From the NCBI RefSeq assembly GCF_943373825.1, contig NZ_CALSBP010000002.1, positions 1,849,501 through 1,913,500 on the forward strand: 64,000 bases of DNA, read 5' to 3'. This stretch comes from Aquimarina spinulae. GTDB taxonomy: Bacteria; Bacteroidota; Bacteroidia; Flavobacteriales; Flavobacteriaceae. Within the stretch, counting starts at the first letter, position 1, and each line of letters begins with the position of its first letter. This document shows, piece after piece, positions 55,691-57,706 of the stretch. A program made the position numbers and the translations under genes. The notes beneath the pieces were generated by a model. It worked only from the letters and a program-made list of their open reading frames with translations, searched no databases and was not told the DNA's origin.

Positions 55691-56620
55691 ATGGACATTC
55701 AAAAAGAGATTAATAAAACTGGAGGGTTTACTAACCTGGAGCTACTTGCCAAACAAGTCGTAGAAGGTTTTATCTCTGGTATGCATAAGAGTCCTTTTCA
55801 TGGTTTTTCTGCAGAGTTTGCAGAACATAAAGTGTATAATAACGGAGAAAGCACTAAACACATAGACTGGAAACTTTTTGCCAAAACAGATAAACTATTT
55901 ACCAAACGGTACGAAGAAGAAACAAATCTAAGATGTCATATTATTATCGACAATTCTTCTTCTATGCATTATCCTTATGTAAAGGAGCATCACTTGGGCT
56001 CATTAAACAAAATTAGTTTTTCGATATTAGCAACGGCCTGTTTGATGAATATTCTTAAAAAACAACGTGATGCTATTGGATTAAGCATTTATAGTGATGA
56101 ATATGATTATTATGCTCCAGAAAAAGGTAGTGAGAGACATCATCAAATGCTACTTAACCAATTAAATCATACTATAGCGAGTACATCCAAAAGTAAAAAT
56201 ACAGATACGTTTAAGTTTCTACACCTGATTGCCGAAAAAATACATCGTCGATCATTGATTTTTTTGTTCACAGATATGCTACAGGCTACCTCTAATCCCG
56301 AAAAATTATTTGAAGCCCTTAGACATCTTAAATACAACAAACATGAGGTTATTCTTTTTCATACATTTGATAGCGAGAAAGAATTAAATTTTGATTTTAG
56401 CAACCGACCTACTCGATATGTAGATGTAGAAACAGGTGATCATATTAACCTATATGCAGATAATATAAAAGACAATTATCAAAAAGCAGTATCTTCTTAT
56501 TTTTATGATCTAAAAATGAAATGTGCACAATATGGTATAAAATATGTTGAGGCTGATACCACCAAAGATTTCGATAAAATATTAACCACTTATTTTGTTG
56601 AAAGACAGAAATTTACATAA
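55691..56620 (+). CDS. DUF58 protein (vWA-like)
   Basis: A 309-aa protein. KSPFHGFSAEFAEHKVYNNGESTKHIDWKLFAKTDKLFTKRYEEETNLRCHIIIDNSSSM is the DUF58 signature; DNSSSM is a MIDAS-like metal site at the start of a von Willebrand A-like fold, and FLFTDML continues it. In most Bacteroidota the gene is beside a MoxR ATPase and Bat proteins, and acts in a chaperone-like complex. Here no moxR or bat gene is next to it: upstream is trxA and downstream a tRNA gene. It might be the start of a dispersed copy. Confidence 0.9.
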   Translation: MDIQKEINKTGGFTNLELLAKQVVEGFISGMHKSPFHGFSAEFAEHKVYNNGESTKHIDWKLFAKTDKLFTKRYEEETNLRCHIIIDNSSSMHYPYVKEHHLGSLNKISFSILATACLMNILKKQRDAIGLSIYSDEYDYYAPEKGSERHHQMLLNQLNHTIASTSKSKNTDTFKFLHLIAEKIHRRSLIFLFTDMLQATSNPEKLFEALRHLKYNKHEVILFHTFDSEKELNFDFSNRPTRYVDVETGDHINLYADNIKDNYQKAVSSYFYDLKMKCAQYGIKYVEADTTKDFDKILTTYFVERQKFT

Positions 56621-56657
56621 GCTAAATATTATAAAGGCAAAAAAAACAAAAAAAACA

Positions 56658-56688
56658 TTTGCGGGTAATAAAATGAGGTGTATATTTG
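56658..56688 (+). promoter_or_regulatory. Promoter of the tRNA-Asp gene
   Basis: TTTG (56658-56661), 19 bases, TATATTTG (56681-56688): a perfect Bacteroidota consensus, 18 bases before the tRNA 5' end. Confidence 0.85.
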
Positions 56689-56706
56689 CATCCGCAATAA
56701 GGCCTT

Positions 56707-56780
56707 GGTCTGGTAGTTCAGTTGGTTAGAATACCTGCCTGTCACGCAGGGGGTCGCGGGTTCGAGTCCCGTCCAGACCG
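56707..56780 (+). tRNA. tRNA-Asp (GTC)
   Basis: A complete 74-base cloverleaf. Acceptor GGTCTGG / CCAGACC with discriminator G; D arm TAGTTCAGTTGGTTAGA; anticodon stem CCTGC / GCAGG with loop CTGTCAC (anticodon GTC); T arm GCGGGTTCGAGTCCCGT. CCA is not encoded. Its 3' end is the left edge of a direct repeat that recurs at 57220. Confidence 0.97.
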
Positions 56781-56790
56781 CAAAATTGCA

Positions 56791-56823
56791 AAAAAGCCTC
56801 AATCTTTGTTGAGGCTTTTTTTA
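56791..56823 (+). terminator. Terminator of tRNA-Asp
   Basis: AAAAAGCCTCAA / TTGAGGCTTTTT with loop TCTTTG, followed by further T residues; 10 bases after the tRNA. Confidence 0.9.
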
Positions 56824-56886
56824 GCAAGAAAATGTTGTGTTGTCTCACACTTAATGTGAGAATGGTTTAGTAGTAAACCGATGAGA

Positions 56887-56918
56887 AGCTTTTCCATAAA
56901 TTTGGAGAGGCTTTTTTT
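56887..56918 (+). terminator. Second terminator hairpin within the repeat
   Basis: AGCTTTTCC / GGAGAGGCT (two G-U pairs), then seven T residues. The same hairpin is in copy 2 at 57334-57365. Confidence 0.7.
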
Positions 56919-56933
56919 AATTCAATATAAAAA

Positions 56934-57191
56934 ATGAATCCAATATACACAGTCTACATAATTCAGAGTTTGAAAGATGATTCTTTTTATATTGGGTACT
57001 CTGCAAATATTGAGGAAAGAATGAACAAACACAATAGTGGAAACAGCAGATATACTTCCAAAAAAATTCCATGGAAATTAGTCTACACCGAAGAATTTTC
57101 TTCAAAAAGCGATGCAATCAAAAGAGAACGTTTTCTCAAAAAACAAAAAAATAGAAATTTCTACCTCAAATTAATTCAAAATAGAAATTGA
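56934..57191 (+). CDS. Small GIY-YIG endonuclease
   Basis: An 85-aa single-domain GIY-YIG nuclease: YTVYIIQSLKDDSFYIGYSANIEERMNKHNSG (the VYI...YIG strands, catalytic Arg in EERM), YTSKKIPWKLVYTEEF (Glu), then AIKRERFLKKQKNRNFYLKLI. This UPF0213-like form is common in Bacteroidota. It starts 9 bases after repeat copy 1 and ends before copy 2, so it is the only gene in a 447-base unit bounded by the repeats. The two terminators before it mean that it is not read from the tRNA promoter unless there is read-through. It could be the mobility gene of the unit (inference). Confidence 0.9.
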   Translation: MNPIYTVYIIQSLKDDSFYIGYSANIEERMNKHNSGNSRYTSKKIPWKLVYTEEFSSKSDAIKRERFLKKQKNRNFYLKLIQNRN

Positions 57192-57202
57192 GATCGTGGG
57201 TT

Positions 57203-57218
57203 TCCCGAGTACTCGGGA
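57203..57218. promoter_or_regulatory. 16-base palindrome at the right junction
   Basis: TCCCGAGTACTCGGGA, a perfect palindrome between the GIY-YIG stop and repeat copy 2, at the place where the T arm of the tRNA would stand. It may be a remade T arm or a nuclease target. Confidence 0.5.
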
Positions 57219-57219
57219 T

Positions 57220-57371
57220 CCAGACCGCAAAATTGCAAAAAAGCCTCAACAAAGATTGAGGCTTTTTTTAGCAAGAAAATGTTGTGTTGTCTCACGCTTA
57301 ATGTGAGAATGGTTTAGTAGTAAACCGATGAGAAGCTTTTCCATAAATTTGGAGAGGCTTTTTTTAATTCA
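57220..57371 (+). repeat. 152-base direct repeat, copy 2
   Basis: CCAGACCG through TTTAATTCA, the same as 56773-56924 but for one base and the inverted terminator loop. It contains two hairpins (57238-57270 and 57334-57365). The tRNA body is not repeated. Confidence 0.93.
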
Positions 57372-57706
57372 GAGAGTTTTTCTTCACCAAAATTACGCGC
57401 CAAAATCAATTTTAAAAATAGAAATACCACTGAATTCAGGGAAACATAACGCATTCATTATCTATATCTTTGTCTGGTAAAATTAAAAAAATGAAACTGA
57501 GACATTAGAATATTATGTTACATAAAGTAAATGAAGCTATAAAAGGGTTTGTTATGTTAAACTCAAACTATAAATAATAGTAGTTAGGACAGTTATTTCT
57601 ATTGAACATCATGCTACACTTACACTGTTTTCTCATACTATGTTCCGAGCCGTTTTTTTGTCTAATTATAATTTAATTAAGGAGTAAATTTAGCACATCA
57701 TAAAAA
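57372..57706. other. Intergenic region with a promoter-like segment and a cut-off start
   Basis: At 57423-57495 a segment (CTGAATTCAGGGA, TATATCTTTG, then AAAAAAATGAAA) resembles the region before the SIMPL gene at 59700-59780. Its ATG is followed by only four codons and TAG, so no product is made. TATCTTTG fits the -7 consensus. Nothing else is seen before the gene at 57707. Confidence 0.45.

Follow-up and report, generated by a model that had tools for sequence, protein, structure and literature searches.

The window analysed here, a 64,000-nucleotide stretch of the Aquimarina spinulae genome, contains an intact tRNA-Asp gene that is followed by a very small nuclease gene and then by a broken second copy of the tRNA 3' part. 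The features of the locus are as follows.

56681..56688, + strand: TATATTTG, a TAnnTTTG-like -7 box of the tRNA-Asp promoter (from sequence)
56707..56781, + strand: tRNA-Asp(gtc), intact, the host gene of the element (ARAGORN; Rfam tRNA, 69.6 bits)
56772..56924, + strand: repeat copy 1, comprising tRNA positions 66-75, a terminator hairpin, a conserved structured stretch, and a second terminator
56934..57191, + strand: 85-amino-acid single-domain GIY-YIG nuclease of the Slx1/UPF0213 type (ORF, Pfam, and structure comparison)
57192..57202, + strand: GATCGTGGGTT, a remnant of tRNA-Asp positions 48-56 and the 5' edge of the broken tRNA copy
57203..57218, no strand assigned: perfect 16-nt palindrome TCCCGAGTACTCGGGA, in place of tRNA-Asp positions 57-65
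57219..57371, + strand: repeat copy 2, comprising the tRNA 3' end (57219-57228) and the downstream stretch

The promoter box was assigned by applying the TAnnTTTG consensus, which we take to hold here, to TATATTTG 5' of the tRNA gene. The two repeat copies (56772-56924 and 57219-57371) are 153 nt long and 95% identical, with starts 447 nt apart, and identity of this extent over such a length excludes chance. An earlier note on this DNA had described the repeat; its spacing and its start within tRNA-Asp are real, but the copies are not identical. The note was right that the copies enclose an 85-codon GIY-YIG gene without an integrase. The only other ORF of at least 60 amino acids between them is a 66-codon, TTG-start ORF on the opposite strand, overlapping the nuclease gene. 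It was also right that an altered T-arm stretch and a 16-base palindrome precede copy 2. These are GATCGTGGGTT, which differs from tRNA-Asp positions 48-56 by one change, and then TCCCGAGTACTCGGGA, which as an exact 16-mer occurs once in this genome. Copy 2 begins at tRNA position 66.

The stretch downstream of tRNA-Asp that forms most of the repeat is conserved at 26 of 29 Aquimarina tRNA-Asp sites. Its hairpins (56831-56918 and 57278-57365) vary in sequence but mostly stay paired, and its appearance is that of a double terminator or of a structured RNA not yet described. The middle hairpin has become TCCCGA-type in genomes G017, G024, and G058. In the window, the loop of the first terminator hairpin (56790-56821 and 57237-57268) is exactly inverted between the two copies. 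When positions 56500-57700 were searched against Rfam, the tRNA alone reached its gathering score; BTnc231 scored 32.6 bits, far under its cut-off of 80.4, and was rejected. No intron family was among the 16 matches to this region with E up to 1, which argues against a group I intron RNA around the nuclease gene.

Occupied and empty sites in Aquimarina

We looked for orthologues of the tRNA-Asp site in 58 genomes of the genus through the neighboring gene, presumably of the DUF58 type. There were matches in 54, and the best 30 loci were taken. The tRNA is present in 29 of these 30, the contig of the remaining one ending early. A profile scan found the nuclease at 5 of the 30 sites (G018, G064, G017, G024, and G000, the genome of the window). 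The other 24 of the 29 sites are empty, with the tRNA and the downstream stretch each present once. Empty sites with a single repeat copy, which the earlier note had suggested looking for, are therefore present in close relatives. One of them is G035, in which the neighboring protein is 98% identical. The sequence 3' of its single stretch closely resembles that 3' of the shortened copy 2 in G017, so that occupied and empty sites can be aligned.

The tRNA-Met site was matched in 40 of the 58 genomes. In the best 30 loci, 21 sites are clearly empty and 7 have the nuclease by profile; the G050 locus ends within the start of the nuclease gene. In G062 (locus L300), a remnant of a nuclease gene start follows the tRNA-Met terminator, apparently what is left of a decayed unit.

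In the intact tRNA we saw no difference between the two classes of site. Across the 29 tRNA-Asp sites there are two variants, and both occur at occupied and at empty sites. The T loop of tRNA-Met is odd, which raised the possibility of a recoded target; this was rejected because the loop is the same in all 30 loci, occupied or empty. Since the intact tRNA is unaltered at occupied sites, a nuclease that cut the tRNA gene would cut its own host gene too.

Repeat copies in other Aquimarina genomes

Five further Aquimarina records (G064, G018, G017, G024, and L008) have repeat copies flanking an open nuclease gene, and each carries its own sequence variants. Copy 2 is shortened in G017, and the nuclease gene is truncated in G033 (L010). 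The possibility that the repeats occur only here, or that they are a local assembly artefact, was ruled out: further assemblies of the genus show the arrangement with sequence variants of their own, and relatives without the gene have a single copy.

In four of the five genomes with two full copies (G024, G064, G018, and L008), each copy is nearest to its partner in the same genome. This suggests, from sequence relationships, ongoing exchange between the two copies in these four. This does not hold for the window, whose copies differ from each other at 7 aligned positions and are nearer to those of G018 and G064. Because same-genome copies are nearest to each other in four of the five, any signal of donor and recipient is hidden. 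In copy 2 of L008, a second hairpin (GGTTTAGTAGTAAACC) has also been exchanged for TCCCGAGTACTCGGGA. The palindrome seems able to copy into another hairpin.

A family of loci across Bacteroidota

To look beyond the genus, we used a profile built from 14 tRNA-linked proteins, and the rates that follow describe that subfamily, not small GIY-YIG genes in general. At E ≤ 1e-15 it had matches in 131 of the 296 Bacteroidota genomes that were sampled; in a sample of 199 genomes from the family, 76 were matched. We examined 178 loci, including that of the window: 59 were returned by searches, and 119 were hand-picked among the matches listed, mostly one per array. L243 was dropped from the set. A tRNA gene lies within 400 bp of the outermost nuclease genes at 151 of the 178, which is not an unbiased rate, as the loci were drawn among the matches listed for a profile of tRNA-linked members. 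All 151 linked tRNAs are on the strand of the nuclease gene and none is on the opposite strand. They lie upstream of it at 96 loci, downstream at 51, and inside an array at 4, and they span 24 anticodon classes in many families. The arrangement is found at many tRNA genes and in many families. In a search of the genus with the window protein, a tRNA gene lay within 1.4 kb at 19 of 20 fetched loci with E < 1e-10 but at none of 14 weaker ones, a split that was chosen after the fact.

Tandem arrays of at least two nuclease genes in a row are present at 55 of the 178 loci. (Fifty-nine loci had at least two nuclease matches, but those in L141, L146, L187, and L268 are separated by under 250 bases and were taken as fragments of a single gene.) In several arrays, among them those of G359, G291, and G118, the spacing is constant, at about 315 to 381 bp. 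L009 and L017 have two intact tRNA-Asp genes in tandem ahead of the nuclease gene.

The GIY-YIG nuclease

The window protein matches the Pfam GIY-YIG family (PF01541) with an E value of 6.3e-19. The only other match at E ≤ 0.001 is a weaker one to T5orf172 on the same residues, so the protein has a single domain. The Pfam scan of this protein revealed no NUMODs or C-terminal DNA-binding modules, and no Y1 (HUH) transposase, since it gave GIY-YIG-type families only. The closest solved structures are the UPF0213 proteins 1zg2 (E = 3.3e-14) and 1ywl (4.5e-12), followed by SLX1 (7.8e-8) and I-TevI (4.8e-3). We take the Tyr, Tyr, Arg, His, and Glu of the family to be its catalytic residues. They are kept in most of the 151 proteins (Y8 in 144, Y19 in 149, R29 in 148, H33 in 149, and E65 in 145), and the exceptions are mostly gaps. 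Asn is found at position 73 in 8 of the 151, including the window protein. In the literature, His, Tyr, Glu, and Asn are given as catalytic residues (PMC10287932), the Slx1 group lacks the C-terminal Asn, and orthodox GIY-YIG homing endonucleases are defined by C-terminal DNA-binding modules (NUMODs) (PMC1564403).

Among six Aquimarina genes, dN/dS was 0.016-0.082 in 14 of 15 pairs (one was not computable), values that indicate strong purifying selection on the nuclease gene. We also built a FastTree phylogeny of the 151 proteins; because they are short, only the overall contrast between isotype and family was used. On the tree the tRNA isotype changes 38 times, where shuffling gives on average 108 changes (minimum, 100); the host family changes 51 times, where shuffling gives on average 84 (minimum, 76). 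It tracks tRNA identity more closely than host family. The tRNA-Asp-linked members alone come from 16 genera in 8 families.

Broken tRNA pieces and hairpins

A second piece of the linked tRNA, at least 13 nt long and on the same strand, was found within 250 bp at 137 of the 151 loci, compared with 6 of 151 in a reverse-strand control. The other 14 have no second piece of 13 nt. We then tested the broken ends for hairpins at the 136 loci with an exact tRNA piece of at least 12 nt, with terminators excluded. A perfect palindromic hairpin is at the broken end at 106 of these, against 112 of 2,720 random draws, and 30 lack one. The broken piece is typically separated from the intact tRNA by the nuclease gene. 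At many loci the hairpin replaces the anticodon arm or the T arm, and at others the tRNA sequence passes into it within the D loop, after position 22. The stems go with the tRNA class: at loci with a hairpin, TCCCGA is used in 14 of 16 Asp and 9 of 12 Gly(gcc) loci, TCCGCC in 6 of 7 Met loci, and CCTGCC in 6 of 8 Arg(tcg) loci. The arrangement exists in mirror forms, with either an intact tRNA, the nuclease gene, and a broken 3' piece or a broken 5' piece, the nuclease gene, and an intact tRNA.

GC-rich hairpins, with terminators counted, are about 20-fold enriched around the nuclease genes (6.32 per kb within 100 bp versus 0.29-0.30 beyond 700 bp). At 15 loci of the genus picked for lacking a tRNA, the corresponding densities, again with terminators counted, are 2.33 versus 0.11-0.34 per kb. 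Since these 15 were chosen on that basis, their lack of a tRNA counts for nothing as evidence, and the split by E value is used for that comparison. We also considered the palindrome as a member of a host repeat family: its exact 16-mer is unique, but in 25 genomes the pattern TCCCGA-N3-12-TCGGGA occurs 0 to 73 times per genome and a reversed-pattern control 0 to 4 times. Hairpins of this kind are also found in genomes without a nuclease match at E ≤ 1e-15, such as G168 and G219. The genome of the window also encodes a GIY-YIG paralog that is not at a tRNA (L003, G000:C2:1280599-1281191), with the palindrome TCCCGAATTTTCCTCGGGA on both sides.

Loci without a nearby tRNA

There is no tRNA within 400 bp at 27 of the 178 loci, nine of which are at contig ends; the nearest tRNA is at 401 bp in L160 and at 640 bp in L229. 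Sixteen of the 27 were inspected by reading and 20 were run through Rfam. At some, a tRNA fragment with a hairpin at its break is present, and others involve different genes. In L222, L180, and L181, the nuclease gene is at the 5' end of the RNase P RNA, between the arms of an inverted repeat (24 bp in L222 and 19 bp in L180 and L181), and judged by eye the insertion would be inside the P3 loop. In L278 and L280, the nuclease gene interrupts the beginning of a gene with a TGGAGF motif that resembles a dehydratase gene and that, from its motifs, we take to encode a nucleotide-sugar dehydratase. This gene then follows with a new, second start, possibly as a rescue copy of what was interrupted. 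In L206 and L267, short inverted repeats flank the nuclease gene within one gene, presumably, from its motifs, for a four-helix-bundle protein; no rescue was seen there by eye. One scan for viral carriers gave only two weak matches, on large contigs (L285 and L284). The distant GIY-YIG relative on the large viral contig L285 is about 2 kb from six tRNA genes, and L284 has none.

Discussion

The earlier note had proposed a minimal mobile unit. The GIY-YIG gene and the tRNA-derived repeats do form a unit, but its mobility is putative. We consider it somewhat more probable than not (roughly 0.58) that this stretch belongs to a large family of tiny, selfish elements that are driven by recombination and live on tRNA genes. 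The unit would consist of one Slx1-type GIY-YIG gene and a piece of the host tRNA in which one arm has been swapped for a short palindromic hairpin. It would enter by homologous recombination between this piece and a chromosomal tRNA gene. The donor may be a circle carrying the hairpin-marked tRNA piece and the nuclease gene, which would undergo one single crossover with the tRNA gene. A crossover in the 3' part of the tRNA would produce the form in the window (intact tRNA, nuclease, broken tRNA), and one in the 5' part would produce the mirror form. One working tRNA would always be left, so that the insertion would be tolerated. Arrays might then arise by repeated integration or by unequal crossing over.

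The nuclease probably initiates this exchange with a DNA break, although this step is less certain. Its most likely target would be the hairpin in its extruded, cruciform state; failing that, the break might fall in a tRNA gene that lacks the unit. Of the two, cleavage of the cruciform agrees better with the unchanged state of the intact tRNA. Branched DNA is a substrate of Slx1-type enzymes. Cruciform cleavage is also on record for ANKLE1, which is likewise a GIY-YIG enzyme (PMC10287932).

The main rival to entry by recombination is homing into empty tRNA genes, as by SegB. A free-standing homing endonuclease would cut unit-free tRNA genes at a fixed arm, and repair would copy the unit from a unit-bearing chromosome; the hairpin would merely destroy the cut site in the broken copy. 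Nuclease clades that track tRNA identity across host families are in keeping with homing, as are the recurrent break positions (for example, after tRNA position 22, or with pieces starting at 45-46 and 57-60). There is also a precedent in SegB, the GIY-YIG enzyme encoded beside a tRNA gene of phage T6, which cuts that locus (PMC13096335). However, the intact tRNA at occupied sites is unaltered and would be cut as well, and the 85-amino-acid protein, with its GIY-YIG-type Pfam matches only, has no separate DNA-binding domain. Furthermore, protection would need just a deletion, yet 106 of 136 broken ends have a perfect palindrome. We regard homing as unlikely, while giving it more weight than the two accounts that follow.

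A function for the host is improbable. The broken tRNA would then be a regulatory or decoy RNA, and the nuclease would act on tRNA or transcripts in a toxin-antitoxin or antiphage system. Purifying selection on the nuclease would be expected, and the shared direction of nuclease and tRNA genes at 151 of 151 linked loci makes a common transcript possible. But within the genus the unit is patchy, being present at 5 of 29 Asp sites; half of the tRNA is missing from most broken copies; and the tRNA piece can come either before or after the nuclease gene. Pairing in RNA would also allow G-U, whereas we counted 983 Watson-Crick and 70 G-U pairs (terminators were included, and the finder prefers Watson-Crick pairs). 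Least probable of all, and very doubtful, is an ordinary tandem duplication of the tRNA region, with an unrelated nuclease gene inserted and the immobile product fixed by drift. The earlier note had offered duplication followed by insertion as its alternative. It describes the product in the window, which taken alone is compatible with it, and the two intact tandem tRNA-Asp genes of L009 and L017 also fit. It leaves unexplained why 106 loci should have arrived at this product with the same sort of hairpin. The same-strand, hairpin-bearing arrangement at 24 anticodon classes in many families, a nuclease tree that follows the tRNA, and the strong purifying selection that the nuclease appears to be under all speak against it.

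If these are indeed selfish, recombination-driven elements, tRNA genes throughout the phylum carry very small parasites that evade selection by leaving the tRNA whole. They would provide a role for minimal Slx1-type nucleases, one source of the short palindromes in these genomes, and an example from nature, open to testing, of a selfish nuclease that carries its own rescue. A broader reading, which we offer tentatively and think somewhat less probable than not, is that they represent a natural "home-and-rescue" class in which a single-domain Slx1-like nuclease and a hairpin enter essential genes and restore the interrupted part, with the hairpin serving as nuclease substrate and junction mark. 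Most of the genes entered would be tRNAs, but they would also include RNase P RNA, with the unit beside or within it, and a nucleotide-sugar dehydratase gene, at its start. The element is apparently undescribed, as we found no account of it in the open-licence full-text literature.

Comparison with known systems

Integrative elements at tRNA 3' ends produce direct repeats that start in the 3' part of the tRNA, and the intact tRNA is kept. The window is similar in both respects. However, its unit is about 450 bp long and has no integrase, at one of its junctions a hairpin has taken the place of a tRNA arm, and the family includes a mirror form with the broken tRNA upstream. The likeness to integrase attachment sites seen in the earlier note is not borne out as stated: the repeat runs well past the tRNA, a hairpin usually replaces an arm at one junction, and the mirror form exists. 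In REP/RAYT systems, a Y1 transposase gene is near short palindromes. The likeness is a small nuclease-type gene near short palindromes that are also found elsewhere in the genome, but here GIY-YIG replaces the Y1 transposase and the palindrome lies within a tRNA fragment. Synthetic home-and-rescue gene drives use a selfish nuclease that restores the function it interrupts. In contrast to these, the present element is natural and the tRNA is not recoded.

Prokaryotic Slx1-like/UPF0213 proteins (PMC1564403; PDB 1zg2 and 1ywl) have the same minimal single domain and catalytic residues and mostly no C-terminal Asn, and the available portion of PMC1564403 does not describe a tRNA-linked element form. 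The closest parallel to the window element is SegB of the T-even phages (PMC13096335). Its GIY-YIG gene also adjoins tRNA genes, of many isotypes. SegB is required for a unit of tRNA and nuclease gene (718 bp in T6) to be amplified in tandem, by way of microhomology that the 5' end of the tRNA shares with the 3' end of the nuclease gene. The window nuclease is an 85-amino-acid protein known here from its sequence alone. SegB belongs to a phage, its amplified unit includes the tRNA gene (tRNA-Tyr), and a broken, hairpin-marked tRNA copy is not mentioned in the accessible part of PMC13096335.
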